Assembly (NCBI GenBank): GCA_009760855.2 | Contig: WPIO01000051.1 | Span: 552,001-616,000, forward strand | Reading direction: 5' to 3' | DNA length: 64,000 nt | DNA from: Cristatella mucedo | Taxonomy: Eukaryota; Bryozoa; Phylactolaemata; Cristatellidae | Part shown: one piece after another, positions 21,201 through 49,245 of the stretch | Layout of the letters: each line of letters begins with the position of its first letter | Numbering within the stretch: the first letter of the stretch is position 1 | Program-made: the position numbers and the translations under genes | Notes under the pieces: model-generated | Databases searched by the model: none | What the model was told of the DNA's origin: nothing | What the model saw: the letters and a program-made list of their open reading frames with translations, nothing else

Positions 21201-23931
21201 GTCAACTAATAGGTCCAAGCAATTCAACTTAAGGTCTCCTTTGCTGAACGAGCTGTAATGGCTTCATGTTGATCAATGGGTGAAGAGCAATATCTTTTAA
21301 ATTACCCACAGGGCCAACGATGGCTTGGCTTCTACTTAACTAGCTGTACTCATGCACATGTTTAAACCTCTCTGTGTGCTTAGGTCCTCCATAGACAATC
21401 AAATACCCTTTTTATAATGACACTTCAAGACCGTAAGCAACCGTAACTTTTGCTTTGCAGGTCCTTGATTGTGGTTCTTGCTTGCACAATTCTTACACGA
21501 CGACATCGTTGCCTCGGCTGCCAAATCGAGCACATCCTTTCTAAATTTCCCGGGACTGCAACTTCTATTCTACTCACTTCCTCGACTAGCTATGCATCTC
21601 ACTCCCTGCTATGTCTGCTGGCTACCGTGAGAGCAACGATAGTTGCTAACCGGCTTTGAGCTAGCTATAGAAAGAAGTTTAACATAAGCCCCACTCAGTC
21701 CTCGCTGCTTTATTGAGTTAATGACAGAATTACTAGTCAAAATAGAAACCGATAGATTATTGCCGACACACTGAGACCTGTCATGGTTGGAATGGAGATG
21801 ATTACAAAGAGGGCTCTCAGCTATAATGCAGGTAGCATTAAAGACATCCTACTTGAGAGCTTTGTGGCATCAACATGAAAATCACAGCAAATCCTCAAAA
21901 AAACAAGGAATGTCCGCTGCTGCGATGGCATAATTTTTTGCACACAAAATCACAGCAGCTTTCAGCTGCTCGCAACAAGCAGGAAAGAATTGCCTACAAA
22001 GGGTGACTCAAAAGCATGTCCTGGATTGTTAGGTTTAAGCATCATACACCTTAGCTGAAGCCAAGAGAACTTTAGTGCACTGCCCCTCCTCAGCTGCTAC
22101 AGCTGAAGGTGAACAGTGTACTCATGCGATACATGCACGATGAACAGCACATATTATGTGTGCCATATTAGGGCACAGGTCTGCAGCGAGCAGGCTTTTA
22201 AAGTCATTAGTCCGAGTGCAGTAGGCACTCATTATAACTAATAAGTTCGACGGCCTCAGCTACAGAGTGGCCAAGGAACCTTAGCTGATACTTCCCACCT
22301 TGGAGTGGGCAGTTGGAGACTGCCTGCTGTTGTAGTACTGCAAGCAATGACCAAGAGCAAGCACTTTAAACCATCGGGCAGAGGCATTGGCACTTACTAC
22401 TGGCCTTTGTAGTGGTAGAACTTACTGCAGCAGTAAAGAGAGACAAGCAGTATGTGAAGCAGCTACAGGTGCAATTTACCACATGACTCCATCGGGAAGT
22501 GCTACAGGGCACTATTCCACAGGCAGTTCACACCTTGTGTCTAGGTCTCAACATTAAGTCATTGCAGCACATTTGGTAAGGGCATCACAGGGACAGCTTA
22601 CCGACAGGATATCGTTGGTTCGGTGTACAACGAAGCTTTCAGAGCAGTTCACTAGAGACAAAAGGAGCTCACCTGTTAATGTCCGTTGCCTAGACAATCA
22701 AGAAAAGGCTGAGCCCAATATTACGTTAGCCCAGGTGTGGGAGCTAGGCTAGCAGCCTAGAAATGGACAGGTGTGGGTAGAATGCTCCCCTGCCTGAGCA
22801 TGCCTCAACTCGTCAAACAGACGCGTTTGGCTTAAGACGACCTTGCCTGAGCCAACCTGAGATAGCAGTTTCTTGTCAACGATCGCCAGATGCTTGCCAT
22901 GGTCTTCTCAGCCACATCGGCAAAGTCACTTTGAATAAACCTGACCGGGCAGCCAATTAGATTGCCTCGAGCATTGAGCATGAAATGCTTGCTTGACGAT
23001 TACAGCGATTGCAGCGATTGACATGCCGACGGCATGTTGTAGACAGTGGGGGGGGGGCTCCAATCAGTAGGGCAGCCCCACTAACACAGCCGTCCGACAC
23101 ACCCCCTCCGCAAAAATCTCAGTGTATGGAACTGGCATCATCGAAAGCAGTAATCTATTCAATCGAACGCAAAAAACAGTTGTCCCGTATAAAACACAGG
23201 TGACAAAGCAAACTCGGCACCTGGGCCCAAAAACCAGGCACACGCTGGTGCTCTGTGGGATTTCATCGCCATGCAAGTCCCGCAGAGCTGGCCAGGGCAA
23301 ACCAAAATGTTTGTTACATTAGATTGACTATCGTAAGCGATGTCCTCGTTGGTGGCCGTCAAGGTGCTCGGAAACTTGTTAAAGACGACTGGCTCCGAGG
23401 GCACAGGCGCGCCCTGCTCAGCGCAGTGGTCTCGGTAATTCATGCCGGCGCAGAGGACTTTGTCAGGGGCCACGATCGGCGGCAGGAGCTTCAGCGTCGA
23501 CAGCTCGAGTCGAGGTACGTCGATCTGGTTGAGACACCTAACGCGGCGAGAGAGAGTAAAGCACACCGTTAAAGCCTCGCCAACCCACCGCGGCACCACC
23601 CAGCGCCTGCGGCTTAGTCGAATTACCTCTCGGCTTCTCTCACGATCGGCTCGCCATGCTGAAGGCAAGCTCTGAGATCACGCGACAGCTTCGGACAGTG
23701 CTCGCTCATGTTGACGACTCGGTCACCCTCATCCAGAACGCCAATGCATAGGCGACCGGCTGCTTCGAACTGGAGGAACTTCATCTTGTCTGCCGGCGAC
23801 CTGGAGCCGAGTACTGAGTACGGGCGACAGCCGGCGAGCCTTCGATAAGGTAACCGGGCTCCGCCTCCTCTCAAGCCGAGATAGGCTGCTGCGGCGAGGG
23901 GCCTAAGCAGAGTTGCAGCTCGACCCTTCAT
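11046..23931 (-). CDS. FAHD2: FAHD2-type fumarylacetoacetate hydrolase-domain protein, seven exons
   Basis: Seven coding exons on the minus strand join without breaks to 336 codons: 23627-23931, 23318-23537, 20440-20499, 19144-19309, 15874-15982, 11323-11410 and 11046-11108 (stop TAG 11046-11048). All phases match. The Arg-rich, Ala/Leu-rich first 45 residues ([20 protein letters not shown]) look like a mitochondrial presequence. A shorter start at Met 23784 ([10 protein letters not shown]) gives 287 residues. The FAH fold follows: GMNYRDH (residues 133-139), [21 protein letters not shown] with the paired metal-ligand glutamates E180 and E182, NDLSARDW with the metal-binding D211, and the [13 protein letters not shown] signature. 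Human FAHD2A is 314 residues and has the same motif order. Family members are Mg2+-dependent C-C bond hydrolases or decarboxylases, but the FAHD2 substrate is poorly defined. Intron 3 has a GC-AG donor (AG|GCAAGT, 20434-20439). Exon 1 is CpG-rich, fitting a promoter just above 24 kb. No broken residues are seen, so the gene is probably functional. Confidence 0.95.
11748..12290 (+). pseudogene. Decayed unknown ORF inside a FAHD2 intron
   Basis: A 133-codon frame (ATG 11748 to TAA 12149) lies antisense in the intron between FAHD2 exons 5 and 6. It is soluble and helix-like, with few low-complexity runs (for example [20 protein letters not shown]). After the stop, a one-base frame change gives a further 35 or so sensible codons, ending KNEC at about 12264. 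This suggests a longer ancestral protein broken by one indel. It is preceded by a (C)12-AG acceptor-like tract and is more GC-rich than its surroundings. I do not recognise the family. Candidates are a processed pseudogene or a mobile-element protein. Confidence 0.35.
12615..12905. repeat. (CA)n microsatellite, interrupted
   Basis: About 290 bases of CA repeats with occasional T, G and A interruptions, in the same FAHD2 intron. The long 'ORFs' across it on both strands (His/Thr or Val/Cys repeats) are artefacts of the dinucleotide. Confidence 0.95.
13386..14194 (-). mobile_element. LINE (CR1/L2/Rex-type) 3' end, best-preserved C-terminus
   Basis: A 200-codon open frame (13622-14224, -) carries the typical tail of this LINE ORF2: [89 protein letters not shown] and [17 protein letters not shown]. 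The 3' UTR follows to 13386, with the AGTTCTCTGAGGGCGC-type end and a TTATTATT run. The copy is 5'-truncated at the SSTVKS codons. Its open frame suggests a relatively recent insertion. It lies in a FAHD2 intron in the same transcriptional direction as the gene. Confidence 0.9.
14195..14605 (+). mobile_element. LINE 3' end, inverted next to the previous copy
   Basis: It reads '[35 protein letters not shown]' from 14232, then the family 3' UTR and a (TTA/GTA)n tail ending near 14605. It abuts the minus-strand copy 5' end to 5' end, so the two could pair in an intronic transcript. Confidence 0.85.
14872..15005 (-). mobile_element. tRNA-derived SINE with a LINE-like tail
   Basis: On the minus strand there is a tRNA-like head with an A-box equivalent near 14995 and a B-box GGGCTCGAGCTCC near 14960, followed directly by 'TGTCTGAATAGAGATTAAGTTCC...GGGCGC'. 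That tail resembles the 3' end of the LINE family in this window. See also 20005-20165 and 44115-44225. Confidence 0.6.
15153..15292. repeat. (GA)n microsatellite
   Basis: Near-pure AG repeats with flanking GA-rich sequence to about 15430. Apparent Ser/Leu-repeat ORFs on the minus strand are artefacts. Confidence 0.95.
16000..17015. other. FAHD2 intron, no gene recognised
   Basis: Several overlapping 60-110 codon frames on both strands (16293-16992) show no domain, no consensus exon borders and no agreement with each other. Confidence 0.5.
17020..17180 (-). mobile_element. tRNA-derived SINE
   Basis: On the minus strand it starts GCCGTGCTTGCCCAGGAGGTA, with a B-box GGGTTCAAATCCTGC (about 17108-17122). 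The body 'AGAGG...GCGATAAGGCTTTCTGCTGCTATACAAATGAGGCTGTTAAATC' is shared with the SINEs at 17758, 27720, 49848, 59107 and 63493. Confidence 0.75.
17181..17435 (+). mobile_element. tRNA-derived SINE, divergent copy
   Basis: A B-box-like GCAGGTTTGAGTCCTGC lies at about 17327-17343, followed by 'AAGCTCTTTTGTC' and 'GGCTGTCAAGTCAGC', the family's 3' body. The A-box half is poorly preserved. It stands back to back with the previous SINE. Confidence 0.5.
17515..17755 (-). mobile_element. LINE C-terminal fragment, second family
   Basis: This is the minus-strand relative of 5390-5700. Shared segments include 'ACTCACTTAGTCCTTGTGGAG', 'GCCGGCCAGGCTTTGAGTGTG' and 'GCTGCCGACTGTGGCAAATCC'. No intact frame remains. 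Confidence 0.55.
17758..17925 (+). mobile_element. tRNA-derived SINE, well preserved
   Basis: The tRNA-like head GATGGCACACCGGGTAAGGC (A-box region) and the perfect B-box GGTTCGAATCC at 17820-17830 form an internal RNA polymerase III promoter. The body continues with 'GTGATAGCCATCAAGGCTC', 'TGTCGCTATACAAAAGAGG' and 'CTGTTAAATCAGCT'. It is not a functional tRNA: the 3' half does not fold into an acceptor stem and the body carries on. Confidence 0.85.
19518..19592 (-). mobile_element. LINE 3' tail remnant
   Basis: On the minus strand it reads 'AAGGTGCCTAGAAAGAGACG...CCTTAGGGACCTTCAGAATG', the terminal segment of the main LINE's 3' UTR. There is nothing else of the element. Confidence 0.55.
20005..20165 (+). 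mobile_element. SINE with LINE-like 3' tail
   Basis: The tRNA-like head has a B-box GGGCTCAAGCCCTG at about 20087-20100. It is followed at 20107 by 'CATCTGAATAGAGATTAAGTT' and 'CTCTTAGGAAG', a tail that matches the LINE 3' end (AAGAGATTGAGTTCTCTGAGG). Confidence 0.6.
20600..21425. other. FAHD2 intron 2, no gene recognised
   Basis: No ORF or repeat family is clear, apart from short tRNA-like traces (for example around 20820-20840). Confidence 0.45.
21430..21665 (+). mobile_element. LINE C-terminal fragment, second family
   Basis: The plus-strand 69-codon frame overlaps the same element as 50930-51300. Shared features are 'GGTCCTTGATTGTGG', 'CAATTCTTACACGACGACATC' and 'TCTATTCTACTCA'. It lies in intron 2 of FAHD2 on the opposite strand. 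Confidence 0.55.
21700..23300. other. FAHD2 intron 2, no gene recognised
   Basis: No coding signature or known repeat was recognised between the LINE relic and FAHD2 exon 2. A (G)9 run lies near 23048. Confidence 0.45.
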
Positions 23932-24001
23932 ATATTTTCGAGTGCATGCGACAAAGAGGGCCAAATGGAACGGGCAAGGACGAGCGCGCACACGCGCTAC
24001 G

Positions 24002-24130
24002 CTAAAGGCCGAGGCGGCCGGCGAGCCCCGACGTCAAGGTCATCACGAAGCTCTGCCTGGCTCCGAGGTCATTGTCTGGGTCATTGCCCAAGTCGGCCCA
24101 GTCCGCTTCCCGTAAGCCTCTGGTGTCCAT
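24002..24130 (-). CDS. 42-codon ORF just upstream of FAHD2, possible uORF
   Basis: On the FAHD2 strand an ATG at 24130 opens a frame that ends TAG at 24002, 71 bases before the FAHD2 start codon. The peptide starts MDTRGLREADWADLG and ends with a Thr/Leu/Gly-rich segment. The region is CpG-rich like FAHD2 exon 1. It may be an upstream ORF in the FAHD2 leader, an exon of another gene, or chance in GC-rich DNA. No splice consensus is obvious. Confidence 0.3.
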   Translation of the reverse strand: MDTRGLREADWADLGNDPDNDLGARQSFVMTLTSGLAGRLGL

Positions 24131-34314: not shown

Positions 34315-34845
34315 CCCCCAGAAAATAGAATGACTAGAAAGTCTTAGGACTTAATAATTCTGTATGCTGTGCTTTTCGCTCAGCAAAAAATTTACTTGCT
34401 CTTGTCTGCAAACATTTGAGATGGCGACACCGCCAGCGAATAAACAAGCTGCCGCGAAGAGACCATAGTTACAATGGACTGCCAAGCAGTAAAATGGCAT
34501 GACAGAACCGGCCCGGATTGTTTGCATCATCGTCGTTGGATTGCAATGTGGGCTACCCTATGAGAATTTATTCTAGACCCTCTTTTTCTTATTCAGCATG
34601 AGCCTTATAATTAGGTATGCGGGTAAGTCACGAAATAAACTTCTTGGTATCTACGTCTCGGATTTTCCTTTCAGTAGTCGTGCCGTTACCGAGGAGCCCC
34701 CGTGATAGATACCCTGAGTGTGGCATTGCAGTTCTAGATCACTGAAAGCGGAACACCTTTCTGCCCTAAAGTAACGTAAGTAAACTTTCCTTCAATCTTT
34801 AAAGACATTCAACACCTGGTTGACATACGGTGCCTAAAATATTGC
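34315..34845. other. No gene recognised
   Basis: Between the LINE relic and the duplicated promoter block. There are only short frames and no known repeat. Confidence 0.4.
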
Positions 34846-34847
34846 AG

Positions 34848-35165
34848 CCATGCTTAGCGTATATGATTGCTTGGCAAAATGAATCGGACCCACCAGCACG
34901 AGCCCACGTACTCAGGAAAATTGTCTAGCTTCCAGAAATCCTTCTTCGTGAGAAATCCTATGCCAGTCTGCTAAGCTCGCTTACCCGTGCTGGCCAAAAG
35001 CTATATATAACAAATTTGGGCAGCAGCATAGCCGGCTGCTGCTAGAAAACTATTAGTGAACTTCGTGCACAGGTAAAATCTCAAAAGACGCCATTCTGTA
35101 TAGCGTTCGGATCTGCTTTACCGTCGTCTGAGCGCATCCTTATATATTTATGCTATACTTGTAGC
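34848..35165 (+). repeat. Duplicated promoter/leader block, copy 1
   Basis: Nearly the same text, by eye, as 46803-47124 upstream of the secreted-peptide gene. It starts ATATTGCAGCCAT, shares the TATATATAA box (35002-35010), 'AGCCGGCTGCTGCT', 'CTTCGTGCACAGGTAAAATC', and ends GTAGCCAGTG.TCAGCAG. It differs by small insertions. In the other copy the coding exon starts within 15 bases of this point. Here LTR-element sequence follows instead, so this copy has no peptide exon attached. Confidence 0.8.
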
Positions 35166-35181
35166 CAGTGCTCAGCAGATC

Positions 35182-35372
35182 TTTGGATTATGGGGTGTTG
35201 CGATCTATGAGAGTGGTAGATAAGTAGCGGGCGGCAAAGGCCCAAGAGGGAGTTTGAGGACGCAGGTCGTACAGTCGCATACTGGCCCGCAGCCGGGTCC
35301 GTTTGAGTAAACGTCTTTGAGCCCGCTTCAGTGATACGTGTGGTTTCGCGCACCTGCCGCATAGAAATGTCA
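35182..35372 (+). repeat. Left LTR, 5'-truncated
   Basis: Aligns by eye with 37032-37240. It lacks the U3 part. The AATAAA of the right LTR is GAGTAAA here. Confidence 0.65.
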
Positions 35373-35415
35373 AACTACTTCGGCAGAAGCAGAAGAGAAG
35401 CCCGCGCCAGAAATG

Positions 35416-36900
35416 ATGCTGGAGTACTAATACGTCGGGGACGACTTCGTAAGCTTGCTGCTTGACGAGGAAAGAAGGCTAAACGAAAGAGGTGTGGATC
35501 CAGCTTTGTGGCTAATTCTCGAGTTTATATTGCTGGCAGGCGGTGCATTACCGCTCGCTGCGATCCTTCCTGACTCAGTGCAAGAGGACTACGCTCAGCT
35601 GTGTGCGACACTTGTGAAAATGTTGGCAAGCCCTAAAAGTGAGGAGAGGCTTCAATGGTCGGACTTGCAGAGTGCCAGGTGAGCGGAGGCGATAGCTCAG
35701 AAGCAGCTGGAGGTAGACGCCGGCAAAGCGTGGCTGCTGTGCTCGGATTTTGTTAACGCTGGTCGGAATGAGTGGGCCAAAAAGAGCGACCGGAAGCGGC
35801 TGCAGCAATCGTCAACAGTCAACAACCAGGCGGCAAAGGCAGAGCTAGCAAAGACGCCGGTGGAGCCCGTAGAGGCGGAGGCAAAGACAGCTGCAGAGCC
35901 CGCAGAGGCGGCGTCCGTGACGGAAGGAGGAAGCAATCTGTAGAGCGAATGCAGCGTCCGGCAGAGCGACGGCTCTGTCTGCAAGAGAGGTTGCTGTGTC
36001 TGCCAGAGAGGAGGCTCTGTCGGTCAGAGAGAAGGCTTTGTCTGCCAGAGAGGTGGCTGTGTCTGCCAGAGAAGAGGCTGTGTCTGCAAGAGAGGAGACT
36101 CTCTCTGCCGGAGAAGAGACTGAGTCTGCCAGCGAGGTGGCTGTTTTTGCCAGAGAGAAGGCTCGGTCTGCCAGAGAAGAGGCTGTGTCTGCCAGAGAGG
36201 AGACTCTCTGGCAGAGAGGAGACTGTGTCTAACAGAGATGAGGTTCTGTCTGCAAGAGAGGTGGCGTGGCTGGGAAAGCACTGGTAGAGAGCGAGAAAGC
36301 ACGGTAGCCGGCGAGTTGGCACTAAATGCTTCGGAAACGATGGCGGCGAAGGAGCGAAGCGTTAGCGTCGGCGGAAGTGCGTGGTGCGCCCGCTATGGAA
36401 GCAGACTAGAAGCTCGCCCGGAATGTCACACGAGATGCTCGACGAGTGGTCGGAGGCGAAGACCAATGAGTGGCAGCAACAGACGGTGGCTCGCATTGTG
36501 GTCACCTCGGTTTTCGAACAGCAGGTGGCGGAGACTTGCGGAGGACCAGCAGAAGACGTGAGCGAGGCGCCCGTCAAGGAGGCGCGACAGGCGGAGGCCG
36601 AGAGACCAAAGTCAATAGCTCAGGAGTGCCAATGGAGTGGCTAGAGGCGGCCGTACAGGAGCTGAGGCTCAAAGCATCTGATTCACGGGCGACGCGCGAG
36701 GCGACACCGTTTGAAGTCCAGAAGACAGCGGCCGGCGTGAGCACAAATTCCCGGAAGCCCCAGGCTGTGGCAGAGACTGGTCCCGCATTGAAGACTGGTG
36801 GTGCGGCGGAAAGCTCTATGGCTCGGCGATCCGGCAAAGCCCCTGCCATACGTACCCGGCAAGTTACTAAAGGCCGTGCTTTCATTTTCCTCCGCCAGGT
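35416..36900 (+). pseudogene. Gag-like relic with heptad-repeat coiled coil
   Basis: The frame from about 35416 encodes an acidic, helix-prone region (LLDEERRLNERGVDPALW...). It passes a TGA at 35680 and an Ala/Glu/Lys-rich part to a TAG at 35941. After a frame change, about 35980-36210 contains roughly ten tandem 21-base units encoding seven-residue repeats of the type A-V-S-A-R-E-E. More helix-rich text continues in other frames to about 36890 (EWQQQTVARIVVTSVFEQQ, LEAAVQELRLKASDSRA). A long coiled coil fits a structural Gag-type protein, but no zinc knuckle is visible, so the assignment rests on position between LTRs. Confidence 0.5.
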
Positions 36901-36963
36901 GCCGTTACCTAGTCTCGCTTGAGAAGAGAAGCCAGTTCAGGGCGGCACGTATTATTATTGAGC

Positions 36964-37243
36964 TGTTGTAATGCCCTGCTTGGTTGCTGTCCTCTTTGAT
37001 CTTTAGACTAAAGGGAAATGTGGTTATTTTGAGATTACGACACTGTCTTTGGATAATGTGTTGTTGCGTTTTACGACAGTGGTATATAAGTAACGTGCAG
37101 CAAAGGCCCAAGAGGGATTTTGAAGACGCCAGGTGGGAAGTTTCGTATTTGCCCGCTGCGGCGTCCGTATGAATAAACGTATTTCAGCCCGCTTCGGTGT
37201 TCTGTGTGGTTTCGTGTACTTGCCGCTTGGAGAATGTCAGACT
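36964..37243 (+). repeat. Right LTR
   Basis: Begins TGTTGTAATG and ends near AATGTCA. It holds a TATA box (37083-37089) and a polyadenylation hexamer (37172-37177) about 90 bases apart, the normal U3-R layout. The left edge is estimated because no clear polypurine tract adjoins it. Confidence 0.6.
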
Positions 37244-37254
37244 CAGTGGTCGCG

Positions 37255-37930
37255 TATGCAAAAAAGCAGGACATGTCCAGGTCGGAAGTAAGACTTCGTA
37301 TAGACCCGAGTTTACGTGGAACGGCCAGCCGAACATGTCAGCTTCGTAACGTCTAATTGTTTCTTTGAGCTTTCATAAGCTCAATAAAGGGAGTAAACGC
37401 TGAAGTAAAAGAGATTTGATATTTTAGAGTGGGCTTTTGCATCCATAGTTTGGCTGATGCTGTACTCGATGGCCATTGATGTAAATGCTAGTCCCAATCT
37501 CACAAGCCGCATAAATCCTTCTTTAATCACACCAATTTGGCCCGATTTAGTAGAAGCATGCTATACTCGGTGAATTGGCAAGATTCCGTACCGCCCAAAG
37601 ATCCGTCTTCTGCCCAGGCATCTGCATAACGTAGCAAGTAGGACTCGGCACCAATCTGCAGCTTGTTTGCCGGATAGTCGAACGGATAGCCTCTGCTTGA
37701 GTAGCATCTCCATCTCTAGTTCTATTCACTTGGGGGATCGCTAGTGTAATACTTATCGCTCACCCCATGTGCTCTCCATTTTCTGCTGGTTTCCAGTGGT
37801 GATTATACCCAGCAAGAGTAACCGTCTACAGGGAACGATCAATTGCGGCAATTATTATTGGTTATGCTACCGAGTTAACTCTAGTCGGAATTGCAGAATT
37901 GCAGAACTGCGGAATTGCAGAACTCTAGTC
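37255..37930. repeat. Local duplication D, copy 1
   Basis: Matches 45283-45930 in the same orientation over about 650 bases, starting at 'GT.TGCAAAAAAGCAGGACA' and ending 'TTATTATTGGTTATGCTACCGAG' and 'TTAACTCTAGTCGG'. On the minus strand one frame reads smoothly for over 50 codons (GYPFDYPANKLQIGAESYLL, ..., LLNRAKLV then stop at about 37555). The second copy breaks that frame with a stop and an indel. It may be a relic of a duplicated coding exon. I do not recognise the protein. Confidence 0.75.
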
Positions 37931-43234: not shown

Positions 43235-44110
43235 TTGAATGTGAGTTTAGGGCTTTGCACAAACGCAGGCCCTGTAAAATGAATCATAGGCTACAATATG
43301 ACTTGAAGCCTCTCTCGGGAATGTGATGGCTTCCTGTAAGCATGCTGAAGTAATCATTCCCCTTAGATCCACGAAGCTCGATTAGCAGCACACAACCACA
43401 CCCGTATAGCTCTATCGAGTCATCTATCAATTTCAGCTGCCTTTGGGACGCTGTCAAAAAGCTTTTCTTGATAAAAAGCCAGTTTTCCAGCAGACTTTTT
43501 TGGACGCCCTTGTTGTATTCAGTCGTCAGATTGCCTAGGTTTACTTGTAGAAGTCAGACTGCGTACTCTTACTTTTACTGCGTACGTTTACTTTTAGAAC
43601 CTGATCTGTAGCCTAAAAAGGAAAGTCTTGACTTGCAGCTTTGTCCTGCTCATCTGTGGCGTCATTTGGGCTCAGGTAATGGGCAGCCATACTAATGAGT
43701 TTCGTTTTTGTTTTGCGAAGGTTGAGCCAAGAGAATTGCTAAACCTTAAAAAGTAAAAAAACCGAGTAGCTGAACATAGTGATCGCGATCAAAGTAAGCT
43801 TCAGCAATTGTCTTTGAGGCACACATATGATATAAACCTAAATTGAGTCCTTCAGAACTTGCATAAATTCTGGCTTTTACTCAGGCGACATTATCAGCTA
43901 GAGACTATTTCAGCTGTCAGCTGTCAGCGAGGTTAGATGCTCTGGCAAAGCCAAGATAGTTGAAGTTGGTGAATTAACGAAAATCTAATAGACTGCTCAA
44001 TTATCATATCATTGTTAATGTTATTGCTTCAATCGTCCGAATTTCTTTGGGCTGCATATTCTGCAACCCTAATTCGGCTCAAAAATTAACTTGGTCACCT
44101 TTGATGACTG
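43235..44110. other. No gene recognised
   Basis: May include further, very old retroelement sequence next to the LINE 3' UTR. There is no clear ORF. Confidence 0.35.
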
Positions 44111-45280: not shown

Positions 45281-45282
45281 TG

Positions 45283-45930
45283 TGGTCACGTATGTACAAA
45301 AAGGGCATGACACGTTTTTAACGGAAGGAAGACTTGGATTAGACGCGGGTTTACGTGGAACGGCCAGCCGAACTCGTCGGCTTGGTGACGCCTCGTCGTT
45401 TCTTTGAGTTTTCATAAGCTTAACAAACGGAGTAAAAGCTCTAGGAAAATAGATTTAGTCTTTGAGAGCCCGTTTCTGCGTCTATAGTTTTGCTGATGCT
45501 GTAGTCAGCGGCCATTGATGTAAATGCTAGTCCCCATCTCACGAGCCGCATCAATCCTTCTTTAATCGTACCGCTTCGTCCTAATTTTGTAGGAGCATAG
45601 TAAACTCGGTGAGTTGACAAGATTCCGTACCGCAGATAGATTTGTCTTTTTCCCGGCATCTGCATGACGTAAAAAGTAGAAATCGGCCCGAATCTGCAGC
45701 TTGTTGGCCGGGTAGTCGAACGCATAGCCTCTGCTTGATTAGCATCTCCATCTCTAGTTCTATTCATTTGCGGAAGGCTAATGTAATACTTATCTCTCGC
45801 CCCCTGTGCTTTCCTTTATCAGCTGGTTTTCAGTAGTGATTATACTCAGTAAGAGTAGTCGTCAATGGGGAACGACCAATTAACGCAATTATTATTGGTT
45901 ATGCTACCGAGGTACCATGTAGTTAACTCT
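45283..45930. repeat. Local duplication D, copy 2
   Basis: Second copy of the 37255-37930 block. A 108-codon minus-strand frame (45441-45767) is open here but is broken by a frame change in copy 1. Differences between the copies in the shared part (GLAFTSMA...) are mostly amino-acid changing, so neither copy looks like a gene under selection now. Confidence 0.75.
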
Positions 45931-45934
45931 AGTC

Positions 45935-46800
45935 GGCCGTCTGAGCATGATCGGCTACCCGTTGGACGTGAAAACCTGAAAACCTCGAGACGATCGCATA
46001 CCTTTCTCTGAAACTGTGGAGCTTCAGGTGCAGTACTGGCATGCCGGGCTCGAAATTCATCAACTCATTCAGGCTTGGAAAACTTCGAGTGATTGTTCAG
46101 TGACCACTAACACCGTATTCACAAGCTGCCCCTCATTTCTTTACAGGTGCTACTGTCCCCGTGGTCTTAGCCCAAGGATTGGGCAGTTGCCCACAACAAC
46201 CCATGTAGTGGCTTGTATTTCTGCAGCTCTAAATTGAGTATTGTCCGTCGCAAGTAGGCCGGCAGCCCCTTAACCTCTTCTGCCGATATGTAAATAATGC
46301 TGTTTAATCAGTTGCACTTGGACACTTACTTTTTTCTAATAATTGCGTGTTATGGTATACAAAATGCAAAGCTAGTCACTAGGTCGGCGAGGCTAAATTG
46401 ACCCACCTGATGCAGAGTAATACTGAAGGCTTCGTGCCAAAGCCATGTGCCATTTCCAAGGCACATGATTTCTGTCATCGCTCTAATTCTGATACTGATT
46501 TTCTTTAAATGCATAGGAGTACTCCATTGGAGGCAAGTAATAGCCATTGATGGACATCCCTATTTTAATTACCTTAAAGTCCCCGTCATTAATTTGCTAT
46601 AGTCTTAATTTTTTGAATGTAAGGTATGCAAACGTGATTACATTGTTCATTAGGAAGCCTACACTGCTCCTCAGCAGTCAGCCGATGCGGTAGGCGGAGA
46701 CGTCGATGCTGAAGGACGAGCCCTGGGTGAGAAGCGCTTGCTTTGAGGGATAGCACTGTGGGCAGCGATCTGTGGGCAACCGTAAAGACCGTCGTTCTAT
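45935..46800. other. No gene recognised
   Basis: Upstream region of the peptide-gene promoter block. There are only short frames and no known repeat. Confidence 0.4.
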
Positions 46801-46802
46801 CA

Positions 46803-47124
46803 TATTGCAGCCATACTTTGCGTATATGATTGCTTGGCAAAATGAATCAGACCCACCAGCACGAGCCCACGTACTCTAGGAAATTGTCTAGTTTCCAGAA
46901 ATCCTTCTTCATGACAAATCCTATGCCAGTCTGCTAAGCTCGCTTACCCGTTCTGGCCAAAAGCTATATATAACAAGTCTGTGCAGCCGCATAGCCGGCT
47001 GCTGCTGGAAAACAATCGCTTCGTGCACAGGTAAAATCTCAAAAGACGCCATTGTGTTTAGCGATTGGATCTGCTTTGCAGTCGTCTGAGCGTATCTTAT
47101 ACTTGTAGCCAGTGATCAGCAGTG
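46803..47124 (+). promoter_or_regulatory. Promoter/leader block of the secreted-peptide gene (duplication copy 2)
   Basis: Homologous to 34848-35165. It carries a strong TATATATAA box (46965-46973), 160 bases before the start codon, so transcription would begin near 47000. Inside the leader, AG|GTAAAA at 47031 and CTTTGCAG ending at 47081 could delimit a very short leader intron, but 51 bases is near the lower limit. The conservation between the two copies covers the TATA box and the leader and stops just before the coding exon. Confidence 0.6.
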
Positions 47125-47132
47125 CCAGGAAA

Positions 47133-49060
47133 ATGAACGTCTCGACTGCTTACTTTGTGCTGTGCATCTGTGTCCTTAATTGCAATCGGGTAAGTTTCTT
47201 GCGCACCAACTAGGTTTGACTCCATTAGCCACTGTTAATTTTGGAGAATTAGCATGCATGCTAAATTGAGAAAACATGAATGCTGAATATGTACTGACAG
47301 CAATGTTTTCTAGTAAATACAAGACGCATTAAGTTGAAATTCACACTTGAGGCAAAAATCTTTTAGAAACTCTATTCGAGTGGGATTCTGGAGAAGCTAT
47401 AGTGAAATGGAAATAAGCTTGCCGCTGCTATTTGTTGCTTTGTTGCTTTACTTGCTTATTTGTTGCTTTTTATTTGTTGCTACTTGTTCATCTGGATCGT
47501 CTGCCACTCTTTGTGACTGATGGTTAGGCTCTAGGACATGGCAATTTAGCTTTAGTAAAGCTGGTTGCATAGATACAAAGTACAATGCTGCCATATCAGG
47601 CGATCTTGACCCGTAGTTTAAATTTAATTCCCAATGAGATGTGTATTTACATTAGTATCCTTAGCAACCTTAGCATCCTCACTAATTTACATCGTCTCGT
47701 TCAGTTCTAAACGTCTACACACTTTGCATGAAGCAGCCAATTCATTCATAGTAACCTGAAAAAGCATTAGGTAGGTGGTCGGTGGATTGAGCATTAGCTT
47801 GTGTTGTTTTATATGACACAGAGTATAGTTGTATCGCTAGTCGATTGTGCATCCTTTGCAGCAAATGTAAAGCACCTAGAAAGTGACTGAGTTCTCTGAT
47901 GGCGCTTTATCAAGTGTGTTGTTATTATTATTATTATTAGTTAGTATATCGCTAAGAGGAGTCTTTTATACAGCTGAATTACTAAACTTACATTTTGAAA
48001 AAATATTCCCAACTTGTCGGCAGCAAATATTTTGCTAAGCTCGCCTTGGCTCCCCATTGTCGGCTCATTTCAGTGGGCTCACTGGAATTCGTTTGAGCAA
48101 CTGACTTTGGCTGGCTGTCATATGGAAATATATTTACCGTCTGCTAAATTAGCAGTCGCGTACCAATCAAAGTGACAGCTACAACGTAGCTATACGAAGA
48201 CAAAGTGGTGAGCTAGAGCAACGTCGGTAGGAAACTAGCGAGTAATAAAAGCATCAAGTGCAGCCTGCAGTTTGGTCGTCTCAGCACGTTCATCTGTGCT
48301 CAAGGTGCGATCAGAAGGTACAGAAATCGCAAACTTTGGTCTGCGTAAACGAATTTCATTTACTCTGCCTTACCACCTTGGTTCTCAAAACTCGTGAAGC
48401 TCTTTAATAATTTGAGACGGACCAGTGGCTTATCAATCATCACTGCTGCCTTATTCGCATGTGTCGTCCTACTCGTGCCTGCCTGCATGGACAGTAGGTG
48501 AGCTAGGATACAGGGCTTCAAATCGTGTCAGCAGTGAGCGAGCAATGCAAGGGTACGTCAACTTATTCAGACATTCACCAAGGGCATTCATTCTTGTCCT
48601 CGTGGCGTAAATGCACCTGAGTTGCCGAGAGCTCTAGCGTTAAGATATTTTTAGACAGGTGCGACGACAATCGAGGTAAGCATAGCTAGTGCTTTTGCAC
48701 CAGAAAACACTCCAATCAACATTGAAGTACCGCAAACTCTTTCCGATCCACGGCGGCATTTATTTCGCGCACCAAATGACCTCATCTGTTTAACGACTGC
48801 ATTGTTCTGTAGGAAGCCGAAGCAGCTTCTGTAAATTCCTTCGTTATCCCCGACGGAGACATGAACCCAACTGATCTCGCCCTGGGTAAGTACTGTGCTC
48901 TCTTTGCTGACAAAAATACAGGCGATGATCCGATAGCAACAAACAATTATTGTCTACTTTTGCAGAAAATACGAAGGCAGCGAAAAGAATAATTAAGTTT
49001 GAAAATGGGAGAGGTCGCTGGCCTTCACCTTTTTACAAATTTGTGTTAAGCCGAAAATAG
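47133..49060 (+). CDS. Secreted peptide precursor, 74 residues, three exons
   Basis: Exons 47133-47189, 48813-48885 and 48966-49060 join in frame at consensus sites: CGG|GTAAGT, TTCTGTAG|GAA, CTGG|GTAAGT and CTACTTTTGCAG|AA. Residues 1-17 (MNVSTAYFVLCICVLNC) form a hydrophobic signal-peptide-like core, although without a basic N-terminal residue. Residues 20-44 are acidic (six Asp or Glu, no basic residue). Lys-Arg at 50-51 is a prohormone-convertase-type site. The last 23 residues start IIKFENGRGR, include Trp, Tyr and three Phe, and end SRK, with net charge about +5. Signal, anionic spacer, dibasic site and cationic aromatic peptide is the usual plan of antimicrobial or neuropeptide precursors. 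The final basic residues could be trimmed and no Gly amidation signal precedes them. A TATA box lies 160 bases upstream and AATAAA at 49240. I recognise no known family. The role is inference and the gene model rests on splice and phase logic. Confidence 0.6.
47820..47945 (+). mobile_element. LINE 3' tail in intron 1 of the peptide gene
   Basis: 'GCAGCAAATGTAAAGCACC', 'GACTGAGTTCTCTGATGGC' and 'GCTTTATCAAGTGTGTTG' followed by a TTATTATT run. Only the last 120 bases of the element were inserted or kept. It is in the sense direction. Confidence 0.8.
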
Positions 49061-49239
49061 CACCGGATGTTTTATTTTGACCACGCCACTAACTAAAAAT
49101 GGCGAAAAACGCATGCCTTCAGCGACCGAAAAAAATGAAACGGCTGCATCGAGTTGAAAGTTGAAAAAAATGTACAATGATCACTGTGTTTTATGAGGAA
49201 AAATCAAAAGTCGTCACTGCAAAAGATCGCCTGTGTAAA

Positions 49240-49245
49240 AATAAA
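49240..49245 (+). promoter_or_regulatory. Probable polyadenylation signal of the peptide gene
   Basis: AATAAA 180 bases after the stop codon, on the same strand. Confidence 0.5.

Follow-up and report, generated by a model that had tools for sequence, protein, structure and literature searches.

Phylloseptin precursors are composed of a signal of 22 residues, an acidic propiece of 24-26 residues ending in Lys-Arg and a C-terminal peptide, adding up to 66-67 residues in total (PMC3742671). For the Hydra arminins and the arminin-like placozoan precursors, a signal, an acidic N-terminal region and a basic C-terminal region are described (PMC12013895). Mussel myticalins are presented as an expanding family with pseudogenes, encoded by three exons with a phase-1 second intron and possessing a dibasic site and no cysteines (PMC12294457).

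Here, we describe a gene of three short exons (called gene C for simplicity) located on contig C464. The window, i.e. the whole stretch of 64,000 nucleotides analysed, spans C464:552001-616000, and gene C occupies its positions 47133-49060 on the plus strand. With the phylloseptin/dermaseptin precursors of frogs, gene C shares the succession of signal, acidic propiece to Lys-Arg and single C-terminal peptide; in the frog precursors, the signal ends with Cys and the tail with Gly, neither of which is found in gene C, and the four cysteines in the relatives of gene C are a further difference. Nor was the conserved prepro sequence of the frog precursors seen in gene C, whose product retrieved no Pfam family at E values up to 1. 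We regard gene C as laid out like phylloseptin precursors by analogy, with no kinship implied. The acid-then-base layout with a signal is also common to arminins and gene C, but the arminins are described with a C-terminal Gly where gene C ends in Lys, and the placozoan arminin-like precursors with about 150-250 residues as opposed to the 74 of gene C. With the myticalins, gene C has in common the number of exons (three), the phase of the second intron (phase 1), the dibasic site, the absence of cysteines and a family expansion rich in pseudogenes; however, the cationic myticalin peptide is central and the anionic part C-terminal, an order which is reversed in gene C and in its relatives E1-E5, and myticalin exon 1 is untranslated whereas exon 1 of gene C codes for the leader. 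Gene C would, by analogy, work like the precursors of all three groups but, as filed, belongs to none of them.

The preliminary description of the locus had proposed an undescribed family. This stands with respect to Pfam, NCBIfam and PDB, in which no meaningful match was found, and its scope is that of these named libraries and a limited literature search. The product of gene C matched no NCBIfam family and its best PDB match (E 1.4) was taken as chance; E1 and E3 had no Pfam match, and E1 without its leader reached a best E of 5.3 in the PDB, again taken as chance. A collection of prokaryote genomes contained 594 pattern matches, none of which was a relative by tblastn. In the literature, the spacing CX4CX2CX4C in connection with antimicrobial peptides was absent among the matches listed, and other papers may contain it. 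Three weak matches in the animal genome were set aside: one to the gene C protein on C55 (E 1.43), which crosses the exon-1/2 junction without an intron, one to the same protein on C550 (E 3.04) and one to exon 3 of E1 on C18 (E 0.77).

Exon structure, product and genomic surroundings of gene C

The three exons proposed in the preliminary description, their GT/AG borders, the phases 0 then 1 and the spliced product of 74 residues were reproduced exactly (Table 1). The precursor reads MNVSTAYFVLCICVLNCNR-EAEAASVNSFVIPDGDMNPTDLALENTKAAKR-IIKFENGRGRWPSPFYKFVLSRK and is divided into 19 + 30 + KR + 23 residues. As had been claimed, a hydrophobic leader is followed by an acidic spacer (residues 20-49, net charge -5), by Lys-Arg at residues 50-51 (in the context K-R-I-I) and by a basic 23-residue tail (net +5), which ends in ...VLSRK and thus in a C-terminal Lys; neither the position ahead of the site nor the terminus is occupied by Gly. 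The hydrophobic moment of the tail was ordinary compared to shuffled sequences and does not indicate amphipathicity beyond chance, which counts against reading the tail as an amphipathic helix.

Table 1. Positions of gene C and of neighbouring features within the window.
Feature	Position	Strand	Remarks
Exon, fumarylacetoacetate-hydrolase family protein	23159-24033	minus	PF01557, E 6.8e-6
Promoter-only copy A	34839..35178	+	Cut at 35179 by LTR-like insert
Exon-1 relative of B'	43619..43675	+	57 nt; AGG at the position of gene C's ATG
Exon-2 relative of B'	46654..46726	+	73 nt; acceptor and donor kept
Intron 2 of B', recognisable	46727..46809	+	71/82 nt like E5
Promoter/5' region of gene C	46802..47122	+	Contains TATATATAA (~46965-46973); 86% like 34839-35178
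Exon 1 of gene C	47133..47189	+	57 nt; ATG and hydrophobic leader MNVSTAYFVLCICVLNCNR; phase 0
Intron 1 of gene C	47190..48812	+	Contains repeat ~47834-47947
Exon 2 of gene C	48813..48885	+	73 nt; acidic spacer EAEAASVNSFVIPDGDMNPTDLAL; phase 1
Intron 2 of gene C	48886..48965	+	80 nt (82-120 nt in E1-E5)
Exon 3 of gene C	48966..49060	+	ENTKAAKR-IIKFENGRGRWPSPFYKFVLSRK, then stop
AATAAA, possible poly(A) signal of gene C	49240..49245	+	Weak; such sites common

The TATA element TATATATAA lies about 160 nt 5' of the ATG and the AATAAA begins 180 nt past the stop, both in agreement with the preliminary description. The latter is weak evidence taken alone, because the window contains 96 such sites on both strands where 60 are expected from shuffles. 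At the TATA position upstream of the relatives, CTATAAAG is found in E1 and E2 and CTAAAAAG in E3, and the upstream regions of gene C and its relatives align weakly over 266-376 positions in a comparison run without shuffle control. The promoter block itself occurs at three places in the genome, namely at gene C, at its duplicate C2 and in copy A. The LTR-like insert that cuts copy A (35179-37243) is flanked by direct repeats (35180-35376 and 37046-37243) which are about 80% alike and are adjoined by a 42/63-bp tandem array (35962-36265); its edge coincides with the start of a 16.5 kb duplication.

The window is animal DNA, as judged from the fumarylacetoacetate-hydrolase exon and from a zinc-finger frame of transposase type (Pfam). 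Its RT-like frames gave no Pfam match; LINE and hAT are the labels we presume for the RT-like and transposase-type frames. The genome is taken to be that of an invertebrate: by our judgement, COX1 makes sense when translated with the invertebrate mitochondrial code, and its neighbours, presumably cox3, atp6 and nad3, matched no gene order that we could assign to a phylum. Searching the 572 Mb assembly (688 contigs) with 47100-49100 yielded 43 matches, two of which are gene C and a 99% duplicate, while 41 fall on the repeat in intron 1; this last count is a lower bound (at least 41, with 40 of 2744 candidates scored). The possibility that the exons are pieces of a high-copy repeat, which would have undermined the gene as first described, is ruled out by this genome search, since among the candidates scored exon-bearing sequence is found at these two places and a stretch of intron 1 alone is repeated. 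The same repeat was also detected after RT-like frames elsewhere in the window.

Paralogous loci on contig C464

Upstream of gene C and on the same strand, we found a second locus, B', with identical exon lengths and phases and with kept splice borders (Table 1). Ungapped comparison including the borders gave 45/66 identical nucleotides for exon 1 and 57/97 for exon 2, and in 164 kb searched on both strands these matches are the best non-self places for the two exons of gene C. On the same 164 kb and both strands, a single-sequence model of B' exon 2 scored gene C exon 2 at 37.4 (best unrelated place 14.5), a model of gene C exon 1 scored B' at 33.8 (best unrelated place 12.6), and a model built from exon 1 of another locus, D, scored gene C at 15.2, below an unrelated place at 18.1. 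When the exons were aligned locally, with gaps allowed, to the 17 kb upstream, the score of exon 1 was reached by none of 200 shuffles and that of exon 2 by 4/200. The alignable stretches are confined to exon 1 with its near 5' side and to exon 2 including the borders, and no match between B' and gene C was seen for intron 1 in the self-comparison. Identical sites by codon position amount to 14, 10 and 14 of 19 in exon 1 and to 12, 15 and 11 of 24 in exon 2, i.e. no third-position excess of change was seen between gene C and B'. From these sequence comparisons, we consider the relation of exons 1 and 2 through B' to be firm.

Exon 3 is lacking in B', whose intron 2 stops where the promoter block of gene C starts, and a search for the exon returned no convincing candidate, suggesting that exon 3 of B' may have been cut away. 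Two copies (~80% alike) of the intron 1 stretch of B'-type genes lie at 37246-37888 and 45282-45936, and a third is found beside D (C464:629121-629749). For exon 3 of gene C, no relative was detected inside the window by gapped alignment, in which 90/200 shuffles reached its score, and this exon was therefore tested against a second cluster of loci at C464 772-839 kb, which had been found by a genome search with the B' peptide.

Altogether, 11 exon-1 loci (C, C2, B', a B' copy, D, E1, E2, E3, E4, E5 and F) were identified on contig C464 within about 250 kb. C2 is a near-identical copy of gene C located 39.8 kb downstream, arising either from duplication or from unmerged haplotypes; the blocks 587179-603789 and 627052-643573 are about 99% alike. 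Between 46700 and 49500, gene C and C2 differ by 15 substitutions and three gaps, with no change in the 225 coding nucleotides, an absence which is not significant as about 1.4 changes are expected. An older local duplication (61341-70663, given as contig position minus 552000, against C464:649775-657954; ~86-89% alike) overlaps the end of the window. D is a leader exon at C464:625336 with intact ATG, whose promoter and intron 1 start align with B'; exon 1 is all that was found of it within the 164 kb. In E1-E5, exon 2 has 73 nt throughout and exon 3 follows 82-120 nt further on.

Six of the 11 loci (C, C2, E1, E2, E3, E4) are intact over three exons with the same exon lengths (57 and 73 nt) and phases, and these six combine the 57-nt leader exon, the 73-nt exon 2, phases 0/1 and an exon 3 with a basic site near its start. 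The other five are broken or incomplete: apart from D, these comprise B' and its copy, both with AGG at the start position, F, which carries ACG there and a deletion spanning exon 2 and intron 2, and E5 (C464:842478), in which the donor of intron 1 is AT instead of GT and the rest of the frame is open. A DNA search with the promoter and exon 1 of E1 gave at least 42 matches, nine of which are the loci listed above other than C and C2, every one of them on C464, and 33 of which cover about 60-90 bp at the start of the query, a repeat; with 40 of 331 candidates scored, family membership is a lower bound. The members known so far are almost wholly on one contig. The clustering of copies with wrecks (B', F, E5) suggests that the family may have been shaped by birth and death of genes. 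Exon 2 of E1 and E4 is near-identical (dS 0.06) despite a dS of 0.48 in exon 1 and a strongly differing exon 3, which may reflect gene conversion or constraint on exon 2 DNA. A solitary copy of exon 3 (91% like E1) is present at C674:443107-443205, with no basic site and no exon 2 within reach.

Relatives of all three exons are found in order elsewhere on the contig, supporting the gene reading of the preliminary description. That unrelated sequence was assembled by chance into a gene-like pattern is scarcely conceivable: the exons are short and splice pairs are many in 64 kb, but several loci resemble gene C exon by exon in the same order and preserve the exon borders and lengths, which contradicts it. 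Gene C itself is in all likelihood real and protein-coding.

Third exon and candidate role of the family

Exon 3 of E1 encodes GVAKEEKR-IIGYPRLRCRIPPCVVCIRAPCPGDGWDNWNFLNRQ, as compared to ENTKAAKR-IIKFENGRGRWPSPFYKFVLSRK in gene C. Aligned without gaps from the exact exon starts, the exons of gene C and of E1/E2 are alike at 36 of the first 60 nt, a count that ranks first among 30,672 placements across five loci and exceeds all of 20,000 shuffles (maximum 32). The likeness fades towards the 3' side (42/93 over the first 93 nt, the later part being unlike), and exon 3 of E4 and E5 hardly resembles that of gene C (20/51 and 21/51, respectively). Protein searches of the genome with gene C, B' and exon 3 of E1 gave no link from gene C to the second cluster, and it is the DNA likeness and the exon structure that point to such a link, making the relation of exon 3 to the second cluster probable.

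After the basic site, all five genes of the second cluster (E1-E5) contain C-x4-C-x2-C-x4-C. Gene C has no cysteine after the site, K-R-I-I being kept, and for this reason we file it by its exons, as a cysteine-free offshoot. Neither the family cluster around gene C nor the four cysteines present in the relatives and missing in gene C appeared in the preliminary description. At the basic site, C, E1, E2 and E5 carry KR, E3 carries RR and E4 carries KEER; the peptide following it is cationic in gene C as well as in E1-E5 (net +3 to +5), and the spacer including the site is acidic (net -2 to -6). Variation within the family is greatest in the C-terminal peptide, which differs in length (20-36 residues) as well as in sequence. 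A predicted fold of E1 exon 3 was uninformative (pLDDT 43.5), and the hydrophobic moment of E1 at 170 degrees was reached by 2.7% of shuffles, in one of ten tests and uncorrected.

Between gene C and E1, dN and dS were 0.40 and 1.13 in exon 1, 0.61 and 0.75 in exon 2, and 1.02 and 0.74 in exon 3, values that are near saturation and come from few sites, the last dN being inflated because exon 3 was aligned without gaps and matches poorly over its second half; for these reasons we read the rise of dN over the exons as a gradient and not as positive selection. Between E1 and E3, the exon 3 values were 0.14 to 0.25. An exon 3 dN at or above dS, for C against E1 and E3, is also what might be seen if C and C2 were a decaying pseudogene staying open by chance, as is the loss of the four cysteines, the stop that comes early relative to E1 and the broken or incomplete state of five of 11 loci. 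This is very improbable given that 74 codons are open, that the ATG and all four splice borders are kept, and that exons 1 and 2 are free of indels despite a dS of ~0.7-1.1 against E1 while intron 1 is unalignable.

Our preferred reading, to which we assign a probability of about 0.6, is that gene C belongs to a birth-and-death family of secreted, convertase-cleaved peptides whose likeliest role would be host defence. Secretion, cleavage, disulfides and function of the family are what we infer from sequence. The leader encoded by exon 1 would guide the chain to the secretory pathway, exon 2 would supply an acidic propeptide accompanying the basic peptide, and exon 3 would contribute the basic site and, as the last part of the chain, a single cationic peptide. 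Cleavage behind Lys-Arg by a protease of the furin/convertase type may liberate the 23 C-terminal residues of the gene C product, and the relatives of the second cluster would release a C-x4-C-x2-C-x4-C peptide that is probably disulfide-bonded. Gene C would then be an old, cysteine-free offshoot giving a linear peptide, and the family would most likely act in host defence at a surface or in body fluid.

The preliminary description had left the choice between host defence and signalling; the former is retained as a likely role, and the latter is less probable in view of the C-terminal peptide, which varies more among the members than any other segment. In a neuropeptide or hormone precursor family, the secretory route and the Lys-Arg cleavage would be the same and the product would bind a receptor, and leader, spacer, dibasic site and single peptide fit this. 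Receptor ligands are usually conserved, though, and the variability of the product, the clustering of copies with wrecks and the lack of a Gly for amidation in gene C make such a family distinctly unlikely. Peptides of an exocrine family, such as those of venom or mucus, would be secreted, small and clustered with variable products and could accommodate the four cysteines of the relatives; no feature is specific to venom, and we hold this to be fairly unlikely. A less variable leader, a variable product and a cluster with wrecks favor host defence or an exocrine role over a receptor ligand.

We tentatively propose, at slightly short of an even chance, a lineage-restricted family absent from Pfam, one branch of which lost the four-cysteine product, kept the leader, the propeptide layout and the cleavage site and now makes a basic peptide that is linear. 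Exon-limited paralogy in one genome can thus lend support to a gene whose three tiny exons were recognised by eye in raw sequence, and the peptide family added here is one that the searched libraries lack. An array with matched four-cysteine and cysteine-free members lends itself to asking how an effector fold changes while the precursor layout stays; if the proposal is true, it would represent a natural switch from a probably folded effector to a linear one within a single array of genes.
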